From Gammaproteobacteria bacterium (GTDB taxonomy: Bacteria; Pseudomonadota; Gammaproteobacteria; Pseudomonadales; Azotimanducaceae_A): a stretch of DNA of 64,000 bases. The stretch covers positions 1 to 64,000 of the forward strand of contig DUAT01000068.1 in NCBI GenBank assembly GCA_012960755.1, written 5' to 3'. This document shows, in pieces, positions 35,409 through 50,533 of this stretch. How positions within the stretch are numbered: position 1 is the stretch's first letter; each line of letters opens with the position of its first letter. Under the pieces are notes generated by a model, which was not told the origin of the DNA, did not search any database, and worked only from the letters and a program-made list of their open reading frames with translations. Position numbers and translations under genes: made by a program.

Positions 35409-35699
35409 TTACGCTATCAACTCTGCCTGGGACGTTACCCTGGCACGGGCAGCAGTTTTGTCTTTGAACCACAAGGCGTTGATTTCTATGAATTGTTGCG
35501 AGGCTGCCGGTGTATCACTATCGGCAAAAATAGCACCGACCGGGCAGGCAGACACGCAAACATCGCAATCCGTGCATGCATCAGGGTCGATGAAACAGAT
35601 AAGGTCTTCCTCGTCCTGGTATATGCATTCCACCGGGCACACCGCCTGACATGATGCGTCCAGTACATCAATACAAGCCTCAGTTATCACATAGGTCAT
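35409..35699 (-). CDS. 7Fe-type ferredoxin (FdxA-like), probable P450 electron donor
   Basis: 96 residues. N-terminal iron-sulfur ligands C9, C17 and C21 with CP, then C42-x2-C45-x2-C48-x3-C52-P. The first set lacks the second cysteine of a standard CxxC (valine at that place), the pattern of 7Fe ferredoxins with one 3Fe-4S and one 4Fe-4S cluster. An extra C35 is present. Such ferredoxins feed electrons to bacterial cytochromes P450, and the divergent gene 184 bp away is a P450. The ATG at 35697-35699 is six bases from GGA. Confidence 0.9.
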   Translation of the reverse strand: MTYVITEACIDVLDASCQAVCPVECIYQDEEDLICFIDPDACTDCDVCVSACPVGAIFADSDTPAASQQFIEINALWFKDKTAARARVTSQAELIA

Positions 35700-35760
35700 T
35701 GCATTCCAGTAATACAAAAAACGGCTGTTATCGTGTGAGTAAACGCGTGGCGGAAAATAA

Positions 35761-35883: not shown

Positions 35884-37347
35884 ATGGCCTCAGATCCGTT
35901 AGCAGAAACGTTGGAAAGACTCCTTAGCCCCGCTGGGATTACGACCCAGGAGCCAGAAGGATCAAATCCCGCCAAAAGTGGCGCCCCTGCCTTTCCACTA
36001 ATGAAGATCGGCAATGTCGTTGATATGGGGCATGCAAAAGATGGCACGCCGCTGATAGACCCCCGATTGTTCGATAGCGTCGAATTTATGCGCAATCCGT
36101 ATCCCTACTATCGAATTATGCGTGACCACTATCCTGTGTATCACGACAAGCTCCATAATTGTTACTACCTTACCCGTTACGCAGATATCACCGAATGTTA
36201 CTTTGACGATGAGGGTTTTAATACCATCCCCAAAGGATCTTCGAGCGGTGTTTTGGGGAATACACAACTCGAGCTCAGTGGTGTTGAGCACCGGCGCAGA
36301 CGGAACCTTTATGGTCAGCATCTGGTTGGGAAATCCCTGGCCAACCGAATGCCATCAATTGAACGCTTGGCCCAGGAAATGATTTCAGCCTGGGATGACA
36401 AGACCGATGAGTCCTTTATCGAAGAGTACAAGGGCGTTCGAACCATAGAACTAGGGCGCGCCTTTGCCAATGAATTCCCCATTAGTGTTGTCTGTCAGGT
36501 TCTGGGTTTCCCCGATGAGGCACGGGGTGAATTTTACTACTGGTACAACTCCATGATGTCAGGCCTCGGCGGGTCAGCGACACATCAAAAGGGTCTGGAA
36601 GCTCGCCAGCATCTGGAAGACTATATTGAAGGGCTGGTGGAGGAGCGACGCACGACGCCAGGCTATCTGTTCGATACTGATGGCCAGCCACTGGGCAAAG
36701 ATATCATCACAAAATTGTGCGAAAGCAAAATCGACGATGATTATCTTTCCACTGAAGAAATAACATCAAATATAGCACTGGTGGTTGGCGGAGGAGGTGA
36801 AACGACGCGAGGTGCCATAATGAATATGTGGTACCTGCTATTGCAGCATGAGGATCAGTTTACCGAGGTAAAAAAGGATGATTCACTCTGGGATGCAGTG
36901 TTCCATGAAACACTGCGTCACTCCACCCCCATCGGCGGCCAGCCTCGACATAATAGCTTTGATATCACAATTCATGGGATAGATATTCCTGCGGGTTCTC
37001 TGATTAACATGGTTGATTTTTCAGCGAACCACGATGACCGTGTGTTTAAAGATCCGGAAACCTTCAACATATTTCGTGAAGATCTTTATTCCGGGAAATT
37101 AATTCGCAGTGGATACGCCAAAGAAGGCCGTTCCAGCCACATGGCCTTCGGTGTAGGACCCCATCTATGTCCTGGTGCATGGATATCCCATCAGGAAGCC
37201 GCCATTGGTTCTCGCCTGCTGAGTAAACAGTTGAAAAACCCACGGCTCAACGTAGAACGGATGAAGAAAGACATCGATGGTAAAAGCCTTGCGCCCATTG
37301 GACTGATTTCAGCCAGGGAAATCTGGATTGACTATGATCTGGAGTAA
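35884..37347 (+). CDS. Cytochrome P450
   Basis: 487 residues with all P450 hallmarks: I-helix G-G-G-G-E306-T-T in place of the common AGxDT, the K-helix E342-T-L-R345, and the haem-binding loop F422-G-V-G-P-H-L-C429-P-G with Cys429 as the thiolate ligand. About 50 N-terminal residues precede the fold, without a signal or membrane helix, so it is a soluble bacterial class I P450. It hydroxylates an organic substrate using electrons from a ferredoxin, probably the divergent one. It starts a rightward operon of about eight genes. The closest relative visible is the next gene, which lacks the cysteine. Confidence 0.95.
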   Translation: MASDPLAETLERLLSPAGITTQEPEGSNPAKSGAPAFPLMKIGNVVDMGHAKDGTPLIDPRLFDSVEFMRNPYPYYRIMRDHYPVYHDKLHNCYYLTRYADITECYFDDEGFNTIPKGSSSGVLGNTQLELSGVEHRRRRNLYGQHLVGKSLANRMPSIERLAQEMISAWDDKTDESFIEEYKGVRTIELGRAFANEFPISVVCQVLGFPDEARGEFYYWYNSMMSGLGGSATHQKGLEARQHLEDYIEGLVEERRTTPGYLFDTDGQPLGKDIITKLCESKIDDDYLSTEEITSNIALVVGGGGETTRGAIMNMWYLLLQHEDQFTEVKKDDSLWDAVFHETLRHSTPIGGQPRHNSFDITIHGIDIPAGSLINMVDFSANHDDRVFKDPETFNIFREDLYSGKLIRSGYAKEGRSSHMAFGVGPHLCPGAWISHQEAAIGSRLLSKQLKNPRLNVERMKKDIDGKSLAPIGLISAREIWIDYDLE

Positions 37348-37563
37348 CCAGTCAAACGGTTAGTCGGCTCTTTTGGAAAAAAAGGCAGGAAATAAAGCAC
37401 AATCGAGGGCAACACTATCGAGGATAACCAGTTAATTGTTGGAAAAAATGGCGTCTCACTCAAAAGAAAAGTCTCTGTCAGTGGTCGGGGCTATCGCACC
37501 TTTGAAATTTACCAGCGTCAACGGGTCGGCGAATCCACAGCCAGGCTCAACCCTTCTCAACTC

Positions 37564-38745
37564 ATGAATGCCGGGTTTCTTGACGATCCTTACCCGGCGC
37601 TGGCAATTCTTCGAGATAACTATCCCTGTTATCGTGACTGGCGATCAAACGCATTCTGGATATCGCGTTACAATGATGTCACCTCGATCTTAGTTGACGA
37701 TGCCAATTATGAGTCGCGACCGAAACGCTGGTTTTATGGTATCGGTGACTATGGTCGTGATTTAGGCCAACAGCTTCCCGTGCTGACCGCACAGTCACAG
37801 GCATTCGAAGTAGAAGTGCCGCGAATCATGCAAGGCATCATCGATCGCGCAATGCCCGCAGGTAAAATTGATATGGCCACCGGGTTTGCAGCACGTTTAC
37901 CCATAGAGTTATTGGCCCGTTGTCTGGGAATCCCCGAGCAGGATTTTAGTTTTTTCGCCAACGCTTACTGGCGTATGCAACATGGTTACCAATGGGAGCC
38001 AAAAGCCCAGCACGATGGCCTGGCGGCGATTAGATCCTTAACGGAATATTTTCAACCTCTGTTGGGCGAACGTCGACAGAACCCGACAGACGACCTGATA
38101 TCTGTTGTTGCAGCCCTGACCCTGGAAGATGGGCCAGCCACAGCAGAAGATCTCGTCACCACATTGCTGGAAGCTGATCATGAAACTTTGCATGGCGGCC
38201 TGGCTAATATGTGGTATCTGTTGCTAACTCATCAAACCCAGCTGGAAGCCATCAAATCAACACAACGCCTGGTTAAACATGCCTGGCTGGAGACATTGCG
38301 CCATTCACCCCCCGTGCTTGCAAGCAGACGATTTGCCCGGCATGAGGTAGAGCGATTTGGCCAACTATTCCCTGAAGGGGCGATGATAATCTGCTCCGCA
38401 GCAGCGGCTAATCGCGATCCAGAGATATTTGGTGATGCCGATAAATTTAATGTTGAACGCAAGGATCTTTGCCAAAGAGAACCACGGGGAATGTATCGGG
38501 CTGATGGTTTGCCTGCGGGTATTGCCTTCGGACTGGGTAAACCATCAAAACACCCTGCCATCCCGGAAGATCGGCCGATCTCTCTTTATGCACTCACCCG
38601 TAATGCCGCCGTCGATGTATCAACTATGATCCTGGACCAACTGCCAAATCTGCGCCTGCCGGTCGATGTTAACCCTCGATTACATAGTATGAGCCTGGGA
38701 GAAATGCACACCTGCTGGCACCTGCCAGCGGAATTTGATATTTGA
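37564..38745 (+). CDS. Cytochrome P450 homologue lacking the haem-ligand cysteine
   Basis: 393 residues clearly homologous to the P450 upstream: DDPYPALAILRDNYPCYRDW against RNPYPYYRIMRDHYPVYHDK, HETLHGGLANMWYLLL against ETTRGAIMNMWYLLL, and the K-helix E243-T-L-R246. The haem loop is destroyed: F322-G-L-G-K-P-S-K329 has Lys where the ligand Cys should be, followed by an unrelated segment, so it should not bind haem as a thiolate. The frame is open throughout. A 39-codon ORF (37448-37567) in another frame overlaps its ATG as ATGA, and P450-like residues continue upstream in the gene's own frame, so the true N-terminus is unclear. It may be a helper protein like EryCII/DesVIII, or a degenerate gene. 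Confidence 0.85.
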   Translation: MNAGFLDDPYPALAILRDNYPCYRDWRSNAFWISRYNDVTSILVDDANYESRPKRWFYGIGDYGRDLGQQLPVLTAQSQAFEVEVPRIMQGIIDRAMPAGKIDMATGFAARLPIELLARCLGIPEQDFSFFANAYWRMQHGYQWEPKAQHDGLAAIRSLTEYFQPLLGERRQNPTDDLISVVAALTLEDGPATAEDLVTTLLEADHETLHGGLANMWYLLLTHQTQLEAIKSTQRLVKHAWLETLRHSPPVLASRRFARHEVERFGQLFPEGAMIICSAAAANRDPEIFGDADKFNVERKDLCQREPRGMYRADGLPAGIAFGLGKPSKHPAIPEDRPISLYALTRNAAVDVSTMILDQLPNLRLPVDVNPRLHSMSLGEMHTCWHLPAEFDI

Positions 38746-38757
38746 AACGAGAAACCT

Positions 38758-39654
38758 ATGGTTGAACTAACAGGCAGAAATGCAATCGTCACAGGCGCAG
38801 CGATGGGGGTGGGCAAGGCCTACGCAATAGCGCTTGCAGAACAAGGTGTCAATGTGGCTGTCTGCGATATGGATTCAGGGATTAACAATGTCGCATCCAC
38901 CCTCGAATCAATGGGTGTCCAGACATTGGTTGCTGTCGCGGATGTTGCTAACCCTGACGACGTTAGAAAATTTGTCGACGATAGCGTACTGGCATTGGGC
39001 GGTATCGATATCCTCATCAATAATGCAGGGCAATGTCATGTCAGTCATCCTGATGACGACCTCGAAAAGTCGCTTGCCGATTATGAAACCATGATTGGCA
39101 CCAACCTCAAGGGTGAGTACCTGGTCGGCCGGGCAGTCATTGACCAGATGCTGAAACAGGGAGGACCAGGGGATATAGTCAATATTGCGACAGATCATAT
39201 GGTCACCTGCGGGACCCCCGATGAATTGTGCCCTCGCCTCGACAGCTGCCCGTGGGCTAACTCCCCGCGCCCTTCCGGTGGTGGCGAGGTGATGGACATT
39301 TACGATGCATCCAAGTGGGGTTTAAATGGTCTGCTTTTTGCCTGGGCAAAAGCCTTAAAGCCATACAACATACGAGTCAATGGCATCTGCATGGGGGCCA
39401 CCGATTCACATATGATCCGCTCATTTTATGGTTTTAGCGACGATGAGGAATTATCTAACCCTGAGGCAAAAAAGATCATTGATACCTGGATGACCGCCAG
39501 TGATTCGGCACAAGTTGTAATCGATCTTTTGAAGGAAGGACCTGAAGGAAGAACAGCACGCAACATGAACTTGTGTATTGGCCGCCAGCCAGTACTCGAA
39601 CCGGCACTGCCACACATTTATATTCTCGAGGAGGATCTTCATGCTGGATCTTAA
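38758..39654 (+). CDS. Short-chain dehydrogenase, first of a tandem pair
   Basis: 298 residues. Cofactor loop TGAAMGVG, NNAG, active-site YDASK (YxxxK) and NGICMGATD. The catalytic Ser region reads NIATDHM, with Thr at the usual Ser place. A stretch of about 25 residues with three cysteines (CGTPDELCPRLDSCPW) is inserted just before the catalytic tyrosine and is absent from the next SDR; it may bind metal or shape the pocket. It follows the cysteine-less P450 by 12 bp and overlaps the next SDR by 14 bp. Confidence 0.9.
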   Translation: MVELTGRNAIVTGAAMGVGKAYAIALAEQGVNVAVCDMDSGINNVASTLESMGVQTLVAVADVANPDDVRKFVDDSVLALGGIDILINNAGQCHVSHPDDDLEKSLADYETMIGTNLKGEYLVGRAVIDQMLKQGGPGDIVNIATDHMVTCGTPDELCPRLDSCPWANSPRPSGGGEVMDIYDASKWGLNGLLFAWAKALKPYNIRVNGICMGATDSHMIRSFYGFSDDEELSNPEAKKIIDTWMTASDSAQVVIDLLKEGPEGRTARNMNLCIGRQPVLEPALPHIYILEEDLHAGS

Positions 39655-40432
39655 AGGGAAAGTAGCCATCGTCTCCGGGGCTAACCAGGGTATAGGCACT
39701 GCGATTGCAAAGGCCCTTGCAGCACATGGCGCCAGCGTCGTGGCATTTGATAATCAAGAGGGTGTTGTAAAACTTGCAGAGGAAATTGCATCTGGCTCGA
39801 ATAAAAATGTGATCGGACTAGTCGCGGATGTGTCCCTGGCTGACGACTGCAAACGTGTGGTTGATTACACCCTGGCTGAGTTCGGTGGCATTGATATTCT
39901 GATTAACAATGCGGCGACTTATCGACAGACACCCGTCACTGCGAGCTGGGAACAGACGGTTGCTGATTGGGATTACATTATGGACACTAATATCAAAGGT
40001 GTTCTGATGTTATCCAGGTTATGTATTCCTGAACTGAAAGCCAGAGGCGGTGACATCGTCAACATGTCTACTTACTATGTGTTACCAGCACGTTCGAGAG
40101 GGACAAATTCGGCGACAACCGATCTTTACAATGCCTCTAAATGGGCACTGAACGGTTTTACTGATGCCTGGTCGAAGGTTCTGCGAAAATATAGTATTCG
40201 CGTCAACGGTTTATGTATGGGAGCCACCGACACACCGATGCTGCGCAGTTTGTTTGATAACAATGAACTACCCGGCGCACTGGTTAAAACTGTTATGCAA
40301 CCCGAAGCCATCGCGCAACAGTTGATAGATCTATTAGGCGATGGTCGAACGGGAGAAAACATTGGAGCGTGGATTGGCTCACCAATAGAGATACCATTGA
40401 GCCCGGCACCCCATAGATTAATTAGCGGGTAA
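39641..40432 (+). CDS. Short-chain dehydrogenase, second of a tandem pair
   Basis: 263 residues from the ATG at 39641, preceded by CTCGAGGAGGA, which lies inside the previous gene. Cofactor loop SGANQGIG, NNAA, active-site YNASK and NGLCMGATD; the latter motif is shared with the upstream SDR and marks the two as paralogues. The Asp/Asn after strand beta-2 (AFDNQEG) favours NAD(H). Together they could be successive steps, or subunits of a heteromeric dehydrogenase, acting on an alcohol made by the P450. Confidence 0.9.
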   Translation: MLDLKGKVAIVSGANQGIGTAIAKALAAHGASVVAFDNQEGVVKLAEEIASGSNKNVIGLVADVSLADDCKRVVDYTLAEFGGIDILINNAATYRQTPVTASWEQTVADWDYIMDTNIKGVLMLSRLCIPELKARGGDIVNMSTYYVLPARSRGTNSATTDLYNASKWALNGFTDAWSKVLRKYSIRVNGLCMGATDTPMLRSLFDNNELPGALVKTVMQPEAIAQQLIDLLGDGRTGENIGAWIGSPIEIPLSPAPHRLISG

Positions 40433-44699: not shown

Positions 44700-45074
44700 A
44701 TTAAATCAGCAGGTTGAAAATGCAGCTGAGCATCCCGTGCGAAGGGGCGTTTTGAATCGGCGCCTTTGGTTTCACCAACATGAATTTCATAACCTCGTAT
44801 GGCTGTCCCACTTGTTTTATGTACACCCTGGTTGATACGCACAGTTTTTCCTGCATTCATCCTGGTGTCGATATCAAGAAGTTGTAAACAAGGCTTGAGC
44901 TCGACCAATCTCGCCTCCGTCCTGGCAAACCGCTGCATTGTTCGACATATTCTGCGGTTTAAAGGGCGCAACCCGGATGCCACGATTCACAGCGACCCGA
45001 CAGAGCCCTGCTACCAGTACTGATTTCCCGACATTTGATCCAGTCCCCTGAAACATCATCGATCGTGATTTCAT
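44700..45074 (-). pseudogene. cobQ: Cobyric acid synthase, gutted by an internal deletion
   Basis: The first about 60 codons are a perfect CobQ/CbiP start: [20 protein letters not shown] with the ATP-binding loop, then [15 protein letters not shown] and GGEIGRAQA. The sequence then jumps frame to [15 protein letters not shown] and SGTAIRGYEIHVGETKGADS, which belongs near the CobQ C-terminus. About 350 residues, including the catalytic Cys of the amidase domain, are missing. The start overlaps the btuD stop (ATGA), so it was the last gene of the btu operon. Confidence 0.85.
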
Positions 45075-45844
45075 AGCGTACCCAGAACATTCGCACTGGG
45101 GTAACCTTGATCGTAGCTGACTTCTGCATTAACGCTGTAAACTTCCGCCATCAATTCAGCATTGAAAGTCGTATCCGTCGGCCCATCAGCAACAATCCTA
45201 CCTTGCTTCATCCAAATCAGGCGGTCTGCAAATCGAGCCGCAAGTGCCGGTTCATGCGCCACAACCAAAGCACTACGATGCGCCGTCACATAATTCTTGA
45301 GTAACTGCAAAATTTCGAACTGGTGCCTGGGATCCAGCGCCGTTATCGGCTCATCTGCCAGCAATAATGGAGTTTCAGCAGCAAAGGCCCGTGCGCAATG
45401 AACACGTGCTGTCTCTCCACCTGATAGGGTATCCATGCGACGGTCAACAAAGTTTGTTAGATCACAGTCTTTTATCGCCCGCTCGACCGCACGCTTGTCA
45501 ACGCGGCTCATACGTCCAATATTCGCACCATAGGCAAACCTACCCAGCGCAACCACATCTCTGACAAGAATAGGCCACACCATCGGTCGTCGTTGTGGTA
45601 AATAGGAAACCTGTTGAGCCCGAAACTGGATCTCTAAATCTTCTACGCGCTTGCCTGCCAATTTAACAGAGCCGCTAGTTGCCCTAAGCAAACCAAGGCA
45701 ACATTTTAACAATGTGCTCTTACCCGCACCATTTGAGCCGAGAATCACAACCAACTCACCTGCACCAAGCAAAAACGAAACGTCTTCTAGCAGGCGCTGT
45801 CCGTCAATTTCGTAGCTGAGGTTCTTCACCTGAAGCTCAGTCAT
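45071..45844 (-). CDS. btuD: Cobalamin ABC importer, ATP-binding subunit
   Basis: 257 residues. Walker [11 protein letters not shown]-loop SYLPQRRPM, signature [14 protein letters not shown], Walker B LLLADEP and H-loop VVAHEP are all present, in the FecE/BtuD type ATPase order. The FecCD-type permease precedes it, overlapping by eight bases, and the cobQ remnant follows with ATGA. It powers uptake of cobalamin or corrinoid across the inner membrane. The ATG at 45842-45844 is chosen over the TTG just upstream. Expression should fall when adenosylcobalamin binds the riboswitch ahead of btuB. Confidence 0.9.
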
Positions 45845-46832
45845 CAAAATTTCCCGTCAATCTTTGTGATGCAATAAGAATGAACACGGGTGCACCAAAT
45901 AGCGCTGCCACAACACCCAACTTTAATTCCGCACTCGTGGGTACCACCCGGATAAACATATCCGCGATGACAAGAATAATACCGGCCAACAACGCTGATG
46001 GCACCAGGGTGCTCCCGGGATCATAACGTACAAACCGGCGGACCAGGTGTGGTGCGATAATGCCCACAAAACCAACAGCCCCGGCAATTGAAACTGCAGC
46101 GCCGGTACATAAACCAGTACCCAGTACTATCGCCAATCTGGCACGGCGAAGATTCACCCCGAGGCTGGTTGCTACCTCTTCGCCAAGCGTAAGCGCAGAC
46201 AGAGTCGATCGTGAAGTCATCAGTAAAAATGTTCCCAACAGCATGAAGGGGGCGCCAAGTAACAAGTCATCGTAACTGCGATTCGCCACCGTTCCCATCA
46301 TCCAATTCACCATATCCGAGAGTGAAAACGGGTTAGGTGCCAAGTTCATCAACAAGCTCATCAGCGCGCCACTAAAGCTCGATAGACCAACACCAATAAG
46401 GATCAGGACAACCACAGAAGAAATTCTTATGGCCACAAAAGCAAGAAAAAGTGTCACCACAAGTGCGCCCAGAATCGCTGCCAGCGGCAGTACAAAACCT
46501 GATATTGCCGTGAGTCCGTAGTATATCGACACGGTTGCAAACAAAGATGAAGTGGCTGAAACCCCGAGGACACCAGGTTCTGCCAGTGGATTACGGAGTA
46601 GTCCTTGCAGTGCCGCGCCACTTAATCCCAACATCACGCCAACCAGGTACGCAGCTAATGACCGGGGCAACCTGATGTCCCAGATAATGGTCTCATCAGC
46701 TATTAAACCTTCAAAAACTATCGCTGCGAGGGTTCGATCAAGACCTATGCTTGTGGGTCCGATAAATACACTTGTCAACAGCAGCAATAGACTGGCGCCA
46801 ACGAGCCCGAAGAGAAGCGTTTTTTCGCTCAT
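45837..46832 (-). CDS. btuC: Cobalamin ABC importer, permease subunit (FecCD type)
   Basis: 331 residues with about ten transmembrane helices. Signatures of the FecCD/BtuC family are WDIRLPRSLAAYLVGVMLGLSG, NPLAEPGVLGVS, and LVRRFVRYDPGS near the coupling helix. It overlaps btuF by four bases and btuD by eight, so the four uptake genes are translated together. The start is the ATG at 46830-46832. It forms the transmembrane path for cobalamin. Confidence 0.92.
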   Translation of the reverse strand: MSEKTLLFGLVGASLLLLLTSVFIGPTSIGLDRTLAAIVFEGLIADETIIWDIRLPRSLAAYLVGVMLGLSGAALQGLLRNPLAEPGVLGVSATSSLFATVSIYYGLTAISGFVLPLAAILGALVVTLFLAFVAIRISSVVVLILIGVGLSSFSGALMSLLMNLAPNPFSLSDMVNWMMGTVANRSYDDLLLGAPFMLLGTFLLMTSRSTLSALTLGEEVATSLGVNLRRARLAIVLGTGLCTGAAVSIAGAVGFVGIIAPHLVRRFVRYDPGSTLVPSALLAGIILVIADMFIRVVPTSAELKLGVVAALFGAPVFILIASQRLTGNFDD

Positions 46833-47668
46833 GGAATGAGACTTTCAGCGAGACGTTCAACCGCATCAACCAAAAACCATCCTCCACACGCTGTCGTGGC
46901 GCCGTCCAGCACCACTGACCGGGTAGATTCGAGCTGACCACGAATAATCGGATGCCGTGCGGCGGACCAGAAATTGCTGTGATTGATGGTAGTATCGAAA
47001 AAAGCGGTGGCAAGTAACTCGGGCTGACTAAACGCCAGTTTTTCCAGTGGCAGGCTGCGCCATCCTGGCTCCGTCTGGAAGTTGGACAGCCCAGCCGCCT
47101 TTATCATATCGTGTACCAGTGTCCCCGGGCCACTGGTTACGCCGCCTGGAGTCACATAAAGCATTACATTTGCCTCACGACCTGACCGTAATTGATTGAG
47201 CCGTTGGTTCATCGCTTCGACCAGTTGGTTTCCGGCGTCCTGCTTGCCAAGAGCTGTGGCAATTCGCAACAGCTCCTGCTGAACTTCAGCAATAGAACTC
47301 GTGTAGCGAACCTGAATCACGTCGAGGCCTAACCTTCTATAAAAGCGCTCTGCATTTGGACCACCACCATAACTGCGAACAATCAGATCCGGCGCCAGAG
47401 CGAGAACATTTTCAGCACTGGCTCTAACCTGCCGATGCAACTCCGCCTGCTTACGCATGTATGAAAAATCTTGCCTTGCGTCCATTGAAATGGCACGGAT
47501 TCGCTGTTTATCGACAAGCTTCAATACGAACTGATCCGCACAATAATCGAGGCTGACTACCCGGGTGGCATCGCTATAATCCGCAGCTTTCGGCTTCGCC
47601 CACAAGACAGGGGCCAGGCTCGTGATCGAGACCACCAGCAAGAACCATTTGGCGATTAGGGTAATCAT
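46829..47668 (-). CDS. btuF: Cobalamin-binding periplasmic protein
   Basis: 279 residues with a signal peptide (residues 1-24) and the helical-backbone fold of class III binding proteins: RVVSLDYCADQFVLKL, SAENVLALAPDLIV, and a glycine-rich VRSYGGGPNAERFYRR. It binds corrinoid in the periplasm and passes it to BtuCD. It begins nine bp after the btuB stop and overlaps btuC. An iron-siderophore role would be the alternative, but the riboswitch and cob genes argue for cobalamin. Confidence 0.88.
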   Translation of the reverse strand: MITLIAKWFLLVVSITSLAPVLWAKPKAADYSDATRVVSLDYCADQFVLKLVDKQRIRAISMDARQDFSYMRKQAELHRQVRASAENVLALAPDLIVRSYGGGPNAERFYRRLGLDVIQVRYTSSIAEVQQELLRIATALGKQDAGNQLVEAMNQRLNQLRSGREANVMLYVTPGGVTSGPGTLVHDMIKAAGLSNFQTEPGWRSLPLEKLAFSQPELLATAFFDTTINHSNFWSAARHPIIRGQLESTRSVVLDGATTACGGWFLVDAVERLAESLIP

Positions 47669-47677
47669 CAGCAGGAC

Positions 47678-49516
47678 CTATAATTGGTAGTCAATTCCCA
47701 CGTACGCAGACCGCCCGGGCGTGCCGTAACCAAAAACCTGCTGGTAGTCCTCATCAGCCAGGTTCTCTATCCGCCCGAAAAATTCGAAATGACGATTGAA
47801 TCGGTAGGAAAGTGACACATCAACACGCGTCCAGGCATCAACAGTCGCACGGGGGTCCTGTTCTTCATCGTTATACATCACAACCAGCGTTGACTGAAAT
47901 TTCGAAGTTGGTTGCCAGTTCAACGCCACATCAGCCGTCACCTCCGGTAGCCGAATCAGTGGCTGTCCTGTCCCGTCCACACTATCGATATAGGCCAGAT
48001 TGGTGCTCACAGACAGAGCCTCGGTGAATCTGTAATCGAACCCAAGCTCAACCCCTTTTGATTCGGCCTGTCTGATATTTTCGTAACCACCCACGGCAAA
48101 AGAAAAGGTAATCAGATTCTCGGTATCCTGTTCAAAGTAAGTCAACGAGACAGTACTTTCACCACCAGGCAACTGCCAATCAACGCCAATATCAAACGCC
48201 TCACTGGTTTCAGCAGCAAGATCGGTGTTCGGGCCACTTGCACCACAACAAAAGAATGTAGTTTGAAATATCGTCGGCGCCTTGAAGCCCTCTCCCCAAC
48301 TTGCACGTAAATTAACATCATCCCTGACATGCCATGCGGCACTGACTCTACCAACGGTTTCCTTACCAAAACTGTCATGGTCATCCTGCCGCAGGCCTGC
48401 CGACAAGGTTACATCGTCAGTCGGGTTGACCTGATACAGCGCATAGAGACCTTCGTTTGAGGAATCGGCCGTTTCATTTTTTGCATCCTCATTCTCATAA
48501 CCAAAGGTCAGTTTTTGTGACCCGGTTATTGTCAGGTTGCCCTGGTATTGAATCACCTTCCGTTCGCCTGTGGCCGAAAAACTTGGTAAGCCATTACTGA
48601 AATTATCGCGTTCAATATCGGTTTTACTATATCGAATGGTATTTTGAAGCCGATCTTCAAACGCAGAAAACACCAGGGCAATCTGAGCGACGGTCTGATC
48701 CGTCTCGCTCTTTTCATCCCCATCTTGTACACCAGTCACCAACCCAAAACTATCGAACTCAGTTGTTGCTGCGGTGCTTCTGTAATTGAATTGAAGTCTG
48801 GCATCCCCAGGAAGGTTAACCGCTGCTTTTGCTGAAACTGTCTGGGTATCAAACGCATCTTCTTCCGGGTTACCGTCATTTTTATCGGCTTTTGAAATAC
48901 CATCGGAACGCAGGTCGTTGTAACTGATGCGGAAGTCGCCAAATTCATTCCCGGCAGATACGCCACCCTGATACTGCTTCGTACCAAAATTGCCTGCCCT
49001 GATATTGAAGTTGACCGACAGTTCTTCACCAGGGTCTTTTGACACGATGTTAATAACCCCACCAATGGCATCAGTTCCCCACAGTGTCGATTGCGGACCT
49101 TTCAGCACTTCTATCCGCTGTATATCTGACACATCCATGCTGCCAAAATCAAAGCTGCCACCAGGTGACGTCATATCGTTAACGACAATACCGTCTACCA
49201 ATACCAGGGTATGGTCACTGCTGGCCCCTCTGATTCGTGCACTGGCCTGACCACCGAATGCGCCGTTTTGGTTAATGGTGACACCTGGCACCAAAAGGAG
49301 CGCTTCGGTCATTTGAATATACTGTCGCCGCCTGATTTCCTCTTCACTGACAATCCATATACTAGATCCTGTTTGTTTAACCGTGGATGGTAGCCTGAAG
49401 GCGGTAACAATGACTTCATTAATGATGGCTGAGTTTTGCTCCGCGGCCACAACTGGCGATATCAATGTGGTAAGAAAAAAAGAAATAGTACGAAATGTTG
49501 GCCTGAAGGTTGACAT
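47678..49516 (-). CDS. btuB: TonB-dependent cobalamin receptor
   Basis: 612 residues, the usual BtuB size. A signal peptide (residues 1-25) is followed by a TonB box (NEVIVTA), a plug domain (SIWIVSEEEI, LLVPGVTINQNGAFGGQ, IRGASSDHTLVLVDGI, DIQRIEVLKGPQSTLWGTDAIGGVINI) and a 22-strand barrel that ends with an aromatic residue pattern (RSAYVGIDYQL). It binds corrinoid at the cell surface and needs TonB/ExbBD, which are not in the window. AGGAG sits seven bases before the ATG. The cobalamin riboswitch lies about 150 nt upstream. Confidence 0.93.
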   Translation of the reverse strand: MSTFRPTFRTISFFLTTLISPVVAAEQNSAIINEVIVTAFRLPSTVKQTGSSIWIVSEEEIRRRQYIQMTEALLLVPGVTINQNGAFGGQASARIRGASSDHTLVLVDGIVVNDMTSPGGSFDFGSMDVSDIQRIEVLKGPQSTLWGTDAIGGVINIVSKDPGEELSVNFNIRAGNFGTKQYQGGVSAGNEFGDFRISYNDLRSDGISKADKNDGNPEEDAFDTQTVSAKAAVNLPGDARLQFNYRSTAATTEFDSFGLVTGVQDGDEKSETDQTVAQIALVFSAFEDRLQNTIRYSKTDIERDNFSNGLPSFSATGERKVIQYQGNLTITGSQKLTFGYENEDAKNETADSSNEGLYALYQVNPTDDVTLSAGLRQDDHDSFGKETVGRVSAAWHVRDDVNLRASWGEGFKAPTIFQTTFFCCGASGPNTDLAAETSEAFDIGVDWQLPGGESTVSLTYFEQDTENLITFSFAVGGYENIRQAESKGVELGFDYRFTEALSVSTNLAYIDSVDGTGQPLIRLPEVTADVALNWQPTSKFQSTLVVMYNDEEQDPRATVDAWTRVDVSLSYRFNRHFEFFGRIENLADEDYQQVFGYGTPGRSAYVGIDYQL

Positions 49517-49663
49517 AGTGCTCTCCTACGCTCCGCTTCACGTCGAAAGCAGACGATAAATACGACAATTGCCCGTTTGATTACGCGACGTGGGCATACT
49601 TGTCGCTGCAAAGGAAAGCACTTCCTGTCCCAAGAACTAATCCCGGTTCCGGACGAGCGACGA

Positions 49664-49857
49664 GACGGCAGGTCTTCTGGCTTACGGGTCATCACTTGCT
49701 CGCTCCTTCCCGAGAGCTGTCATAACAGATTGTTATTGGCAGCTGTTTCTCAGTGGTTTATGCGAGTAGCTCGTCGTTTACAGTTGCGGGTACAGCCTCG
49801 GATTCGTGGTCATACAACCCACTCACCAAGTTCCCTTTACGCCCCAATGGGCACCGT
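49664..49857 (-). ncRNA. Cobalamin riboswitch controlling btuB
   Basis: On the minus strand the conserved elements occur in order: GGTGCC, AAAGGGAA, TTGGTG, the CCGAGGC-GTACCCGCAACTGTAA core, CCACTG, CGGGAAGG, and the B12 box AGCCAGAAGACCTGCC (49667-49682). These are the hallmarks of an adenosylcobalamin riboswitch. It lies between cobO and btuB and should shut down btuBFCD when corrinoid is plentiful. I cannot tell whether it acts by terminator or by hiding the btuB ribosome-binding site. Confidence 0.95.
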
Positions 49858-49936
49858 CGCGGCAGATTATCGTTTAATAGTCCCGCCTCGTGCAAGTGAA
49901 GATTGCGGATCTATCTTATCGGGCCTGGCGCATCGA

Positions 49937-50533
49937 CTAAAAATCAATACCTTGCTTAGCCATGATCCCGGCCTGGTACGGGTGCTTGATCTCTCGCATC
50001 TCGGTGACTAAATCTGCCGCGGCTATCAGCTCGGCTTTTGCATCACGGCCCGTTAGAATCACACTGGTACGCTCATGCCGCGCAGCAATGGCAGCAATGA
50101 CCGCATGGATGTCCAGATAGTCATAACGAAGCGCGATGTTAATTTCGTCAAGTAATACAAGATCATAGTTCCCCGATGTGAGCAGCAATTTGGATCGCTC
50201 AAAAGCTGCCTCTGCCGCAGCAATATCTTTTTGACGGTCCTGCGTATCCCAGGTAAACCCCTCACCCATGACAAACCAGTCAACCGGCAAGGTATCGAAG
50301 AAGTTTTTCTCGCCAGTCTTCCAGGTACCTTTTACGTATTGAACCACTGCCACTTCATGGCCCCAGCCCAGGGCTCTAATCAAAACACCAAATGCAGAGC
50401 TGGATTTACCTTTTCCATTACCAGTATGAACCAGCACCAGACCCCGGTCTGATTTCTTGCTGGCGAGTCGTTTTTTCCGCTGACTCTCTTGCAAGGACTG
50501 CATTTTTTCTTTGTGTGATTGGTTTTCGTCCAT
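49937..50533 (-). CDS. cobO: Corrinoid adenosyltransferase (CobO/BtuR/CobA type)
   Basis: 198 residues. The P-loop TGNGKGKSS (37-45) is the variant used by CobO/BtuR to bind ATP, followed by LIRALGWGHEVAVVQYVKG, the DEINIALRYDYL Walker-B-like strand and a RDAKAELIAAADLVTEM segment. It transfers the 5'-deoxyadenosyl group of ATP to cobalt, making the coenzyme from imported cobalamin. GGAGGTTCT directly before the ATG is a near-ideal ribosome-binding site. It lies upstream of the riboswitch, so it is not under the same control as btuB unless it has a riboswitch of its own, and I see none. Confidence 0.95.
   Translation of the reverse strand: MDENQSHKEKMQSLQESQRKKRLASKKSDRGLVLVHTGNGKGKSSSAFGVLIRALGWGHEVAVVQYVKGTWKTGEKNFFDTLPVDWFVMGEGFTWDTQDRQKDIAAAEAAFERSKLLLTSGNYDLVLLDEINIALRYDYLDIHAVIAAIAARHERTSVILTGRDAKAELIAAADLVTEMREIKHPYQAGIMAKQGIDF

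Follow-up and report, generated by a model that had tools for sequence, protein, structure and literature searches.

What does a P450 homologue without a haem-ligand cysteine do when it is encoded directly behind an intact P450? This arrangement is found in the gammaproteobacterial DNA analyzed here (contig DUAT01000068.1, positions 1 to 64,000; 'the window' denotes this whole stretch of 64,000 nucleotides). The Cys-containing P450 (487 residues) is encoded on the forward strand at 35884..37347 with an intact haem loop, FGVGPHLCPG (37147..37176, +), and the Cys-less homologue follows on the same strand; both proteins lie above the Pfam PF00067 cut-off. The usual picture of a soluble bacterial P450 is that of a single-chain enzyme supplied by redox partners. 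A sequence-only reading of the locus had reported that the second frame stays open for 393 codons (37564-38745). The frame is indeed open, but the conserved extent of the gene starts earlier and is longer, 449 codons plus stop (37396..38745, +), as the N-terminal residues common to the homologues are encoded in frame from 37396 in the window copy. ATG, GTG and TTG are all absent from window positions 37393-37563 at this conserved N-terminus, and the nearest relatives (L001-L003) start with GTG; the start of the window copy is thus ambiguous and might reflect a rare codon, a population variant or an assembly error.

The absence of the ligand is a property of the family and not of this copy only. 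Where the window protein reads FGLGKPSK, the haem-thiolate Cys of FxxGxxxCxG is missing, and it is equally missing from every row of three overlapping family sets (120/120, 82/82 and 200/200), so that the reported P450 homologue without haem Cys behind an intact P450 is confirmed both in the window and across the family. All of the best 119 homologues listed (57-73% identity; more exist) lack the haem Cys and carry a similar replacement loop. In its place stands an extended conserved loop (residues 357-399; 38464..38592, +): among 82 Cys-less genes from 79 loci, the haem-loop pattern is absent from all 82, which instead share the motif G-x-P-[ST]-x-x-P-[AG]-x-P-x-x-R-[PSA]-x-[SQ]-x-[YF]-A. A further 67 Cys-less genes, some of them from the same records, contain the motif in 65 cases (variants in L092 and L098) and the haem-loop pattern in none. 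When the window, 81 locus genes and 118 database proteins are aligned jointly (200 rows), the shared replacement-loop motif is found in 199 rows, the exception being P0019, and the haem-loop pattern in 0/200, with a Cys elsewhere in the 38-column loop span in 9/200. Mean conservation peaks at residues 361-375 (0.93), followed by residues 256-270 (0.89) and residues 316-330 and 391-405 (0.87 each); hence the region around the lost haem ligand ranks among the most constrained parts of the Cys-less protein. The neighbouring P450s retain FGxGxHxCxG in 80 of 81 cases, the exception (L061_3) being a fragment of 303 aa.

A second element of haem binding is lost as well. At 37723..37728 (+) the Cys-less protein has lost about 24 residues that the P450 next to it retains, among them the C-helix HxxxR; hhalign places a gap of 22 here. 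The C-helix HxxxR occurs in 0/82 Cys-less rows compared to 79/79 rows of the neighbouring P450s; if HxxxR or WxxxR is allowed at any place in the C-helix span, 6/82 Cys-less rows have one. The median length of this span is 63 residues in Cys-less proteins versus 87 in partner P450s. Ahead of the P450 core, the family shares an N-terminal extension, RTFEIYQRQRVG (residues 34-45; 37495..37530, +), with a predicted helix at residues 35-42 and with R34, E37, R41 and R43 present in 199/200 aligned rows.

Other parts of the fold are kept, which bears on the question whether the protein might still hold haem, through another ligand or none, as an unusual haem protein. The ExxR motif (38290..38301, +) is invariant (E299 and R302 in 200/200 rows) and R312 is found in 197/200, as might be expected of a haem protein; yet the ligand Cys and the C-helix HxxxR are both gone, the I-helix core (38161..38205, +) carries LLExDHETLHG with the invariant D261 in place of the Gly-rich site, and C359, the conserved Cys closest to the replacement loop, is Val in 9/200 rows. 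We therefore regard a retained haem as very improbable. The DHETLH stretch of the I-helix (38170-38193) resembles HExxH and, together with the near-invariant C440, is a possible metal site. The conservation of D261 (200/200), H266 (192/200), H303 (192/200) and C440 (198/200) would agree with a function that the protein has acquired for itself in the emptied haem pocket, be it catalysis or metal binding, but HET is common in the I-helices of ordinary P450s and, by an estimate from helix periodicity without coordinates, both I-helix His residues face away from the haem pocket. Such a role appears improbable to us.

Is the gene simply decaying? Degeneration of a redundant copy had been named as the dull alternative, and two observations could be read in this way: there is no standard start codon for the conserved N-terminus in the window copy, and the evolutionary rate of the Cys-less gene is about 1.5 times that of its partner. 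Against this, the frame is open and conserved across phyla, and for the Cys-less gene dN/dS has a median of 0.08 (range 0.03-0.17) in 50 close pairs, whose Cys-less proteins are 82-99% identical, compared to a median of 0.04 (range 0.00-0.15) for the partner P450 in the same pairs. For the window versus L001 and L003 the Cys-less values are 0.09 and 0.11, with dS near saturation. In distant pairs, where dS is near-saturated or compositionally biased, the Cys-less dN/dS reaches at least 0.49 and the partner is equally high; for L008_11002 versus L008_8001 the values are 0.491 (Cys-less) and 0.482 (Cys P450). Relatives that keep the Cys and a dN/dS near 1, the two outcomes that would mark a dying paralogue, were both looked for and neither was seen. 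The earlier statement that this is not random decay thus holds, degeneration is rejected for the family as a whole, and we give the decaying paralogue hardly any credence. The Cys-less gene is conserved and under purifying selection, its product has neither the thiolate ligand nor the C-helix propionate motif, and it is inherited together with its partner.

This joint inheritance is seen in several ways. The same Cys P450 family lies directly upstream on the same strand of 81 of the 82 Cys-less genes in the 79 loci, and the remaining case (L078) ends at a contig edge. Judged by record titles, which are those of metagenome assemblies and in part apparently mislabelled, 51 of the 79 loci belong to Pseudomonadota and 23 to Actinomycetota. 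The titles of L004 and L054 (Candidatus Kuenenia stuttgartiensis and Bifidobacterium breve) are unexpected for the family and may stem from mislabelled metagenome bins. In the reverse direction, a search of genome samples with the Cys P450 alone returned 58 genes, 51 of which adjoin a Cys-less gene and 7 of which do not; this count omits genomes first found via the Cys-less search, and some records recur in it (e.g. L113 and L040). That many bacteria keep both genes side by side suggests that the Cys-less protein is a built-in helper of a working P450. The pair is common only in some families and rare in even samples, with 1/274 genomes in the class and 1/244 in the order of G001, the sole case each time being G001 itself. 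Matches to the Cys P450 were obtained in 35/150 and 36/150 genomes of two samples (largely the same genomes; G001, G006, G011, G012 and G014 counted), in 10/10 genomes of another (G003 counted) and in 9/198 genomes of the order of G013 (G013 and G015 counted).

A tree of 91 rows places the paired P450s in one clade (SH-aLRT 95), the solo P450s in another (90) and the Cys-less proteins in a third (100); the deeper node that unites the Cys-less clade and these P450s (86) lies on a long branch and is unsure. The 7 solo P450s form a sister clade in which the Cys-less partner is absent (L131, L132, L140, L147-L150). They are 58-62% identical to the window P450, and the five of their loci that were read represent other gene contexts. 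The existence of this clade without partner is a point against the helper reading. Twelve positions separate paired from solo P450s, including Y76, Y106, F107, S119, H346, I350 and H383 of the partner; position 383 is His in 128/129 paired and Arg in 7/7 solo proteins. Two loci (L004 and L021) contain two tandem P450/Cys-less pairs, each half of which groups with its counterpart in the tree, so that the pair duplicates as one unit. Between the two genes the evolutionary distances show a correlation of r 0.73 (78 pairs with the window; maximum of 1000 permutations 0.13), and the partial r is 0.69 when the third P450 is controlled for (24 loci) and 0.40 with the ferredoxin as control (42 loci), although shared ancestry alone can yield correlated trees and the partial corrections remove it incompletely. 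Gene fusion was rejected as a proof of interaction: no clean fusion of the Cys-less gene and the P450 was present among matches to a tandem query, and the five ORFs of 538-732 aa that do match it all hold garbled stretches (P0243-P0246; in P0079 the two genes are linked through a garbled tail), look like frameshifted assemblies and carry no weight.

The wider neighbourhood offers further candidates for a client. A divergent ferredoxin gene (Fer4; 35409..35717, -) lies upstream of the window P450 and is a plausible electron donor for it, and two SDR dehydrogenases follow the Cys-less gene (38758..39654, immediately 3', and 39641..40432, both +). Among 149 neighbour proteins of 26 sampled loci the commonest are SDR (25/149), other P450 (14/149) and Rieske proteins (11/149) as well as TetR regulators, and a divergent upstream ferredoxin is found in 39 of the 73 loci with room for one. 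In many Gammaproteobacteria (L013, L024-L028, L034, L037 and others) a third P450 is located just downstream of the pair; it is about 31-36% identical to the partner P450 and has the loop FGIGQHFCMG in most intact copies. Some of the genomes are very rich in P450s: at E 1e-20, a single P450-derived profile matches 23 times in L001, 24 times in L028 and 14 times in L048. As a guess, the pathway might degrade a hydrophobic compound, perhaps a terpenoid or steroid. Further downstream, window positions 45071-50533 resemble, by eye, a cobalamin/siderophore uptake set (ABC ATPase, FecCD-type permease, binding protein, TonB receptor and a corrinoid adenosyltransferase-like protein).

The frequency of SDR, Rieske and other P450 proteins in these surroundings leaves room for a haem-free fold that serves the same pathway without acting on the adjacent P450, by binding a substrate or product or by assisting an SDR, a Rieske oxygenase or the third P450. 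Structure prediction fits this as well: an AlphaFold2 model of both proteins as a tandem chain (94 alignment rows, with 24 paired ones in addition to the query) showed no confident docking and a pTM of 0.54, which by rough estimate is about the value that two undocked domains would produce and which counts against the helper reading. Across the replacement loop (residues 357-386), the pLDDT of three blocks was 70, 78 and 73 in the tandem model, compared to low-confidence values of 39, 52 and 56 in overlapping blocks (361-390) of the Cys-less protein modelled alone, while the next block after the loop was lower in the tandem model (59 versus 71 alone). As the alignments of the tandem and single models differed, the rise in loop pLDDT is no evidence of binding. 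What speaks against a role elsewhere in the pathway is that only the Cys P450 is constant, whereas the presence of SDR, ferredoxin and third P450 varies from locus to locus; we consider this explanation rather unlikely.

Cys-less P450 homologues with a helper function are already known, and their clients are glycosyltransferases. EryCII has neither the Cys nor the C helices, and its extra N-terminal helix is its interface (PMC3391682). The present family resembles EryCII and DesVIII in its P450 fold, in the retained I-helix and K-helix regions, in the missing haem Cys and C helix, in the extra N-terminal helix and in having an enzyme partner, and differs from them in that the constant neighbour is a P450 and not a glycosyltransferase. 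Measured against EryCII (PMC3391682), the traits of glycosyltransferase activators found in the Cys-less family are the loss of the Cys and of the C-helix motif and the gain of a predicted N-terminal helix, and these would fit an activator whose glycosyltransferase is encoded elsewhere. Membership in the P450-derived glycosyltransferase activator family TIGR04515 is rejected, though: the window Cys-less protein scores 84.8 bits against a cut-off of 343, below the ordinary P450s of three carrier genomes, which reach 178. Of 15 carrier genomes, a set that does not include the window's own, only one has an EryCIII-type domain over its cut-off, and a second shows a match below threshold. No EryCIII-type glycosyltransferase is present among the 14 window proteins scanned around the gene (both P450s included), in agreement with the initial reading of the locus, or in the 25 commonest of the 89 families among the 149 neighbour proteins. 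A remote glycosyltransferase as client is thus largely refuted and in our judgement extremely unlikely; given the EryCII-like traits, we read the family as having arrived independently at the same solution, its client being a P450.

Neither the Cys-less protein (122.3 bits) nor its partner (169.2 bits) passes the cut-off of 500 for the cyclodipeptide-associated P450s of TIGR04538. Public sources give some homologues, Cys-less ones included, the name pulcherriminic acid synthase, which looks like a misannotation. The name belongs to CYP134A1, the CypX of Bacillus subtilis (PDB 3nc3). CypX is a haem P450; the window Cys-less protein, in contrast, lacks the ligand Cys and the C-helix motif, and the name therefore cannot fit the Cys-less homologues. 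More generally, P450 annotation from profiles alone labels probably haem-free proteins as enzymes. Our searches of the open-licence literature listed no title about the pairing of a P450 with a haem-free P450, an absence that carries little weight. A comparable case is EutEFG, a split P450 made up of three gene fragments in a diterpenoid cluster of an actinobacterium, for which the authors suggest that a putatively catalytically inactive P450 complex structurally assists the P450 EutC, with 10-fold more of one product (PMC11574762). EutEFG resembles the present proposal in that an inactive P450 is suggested to assist another P450; it differs in being a split P450 from one cluster, whereas here a conserved one-gene family has a fixed partner.

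With the alternatives weighed, we lean slightly towards the view that the Cys-less gene encodes a P450-fold protein without haem, which serves the haem P450 directly upstream as a subunit or activator. The earlier suggestion of a helper for the neighbouring P450 rather than for a glycosyltransferase is thereby upheld in part, by the near-constant pairing in both search directions (81/82 and 51/58), the duplication of whole pairs and the rarity of EryCIII-type domains; the tandem model, in which the two proteins do not dock confidently, does not bear it out. The Cys-less protein would be unable to bind haem in the manner of a P450; it would associate with its partner, probably via the conserved N-terminal helix, the extended replacement loop or both, and might stabilize it or tune its access to substrate or redox partner, as EryCII does for EryCIII. 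Our confidence is evenly balanced on the more specific proposal of a two-subunit bacterial P450, in which a haem subunit and a haem-free pseudo-P450 of single origin have been co-inherited and co-duplicated ever since, the latter being required for catalysis or tuning it.

Compared to the Cys-less helpers already described, the new point is that the likely client is itself a P450. A conserved pair of P450 and pseudo-P450, shared by Pseudomonadota and Actinomycetota, would demonstrate that P450s can own a dedicated P450-fold subunit, and the principle known from EryCII would extend from glycosyltransferases to P450s, with the solo sister clade as a natural control for the role of the subunit. 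If true, this would establish the principle of a pseudoenzyme as subunit inside the P450 superfamily.
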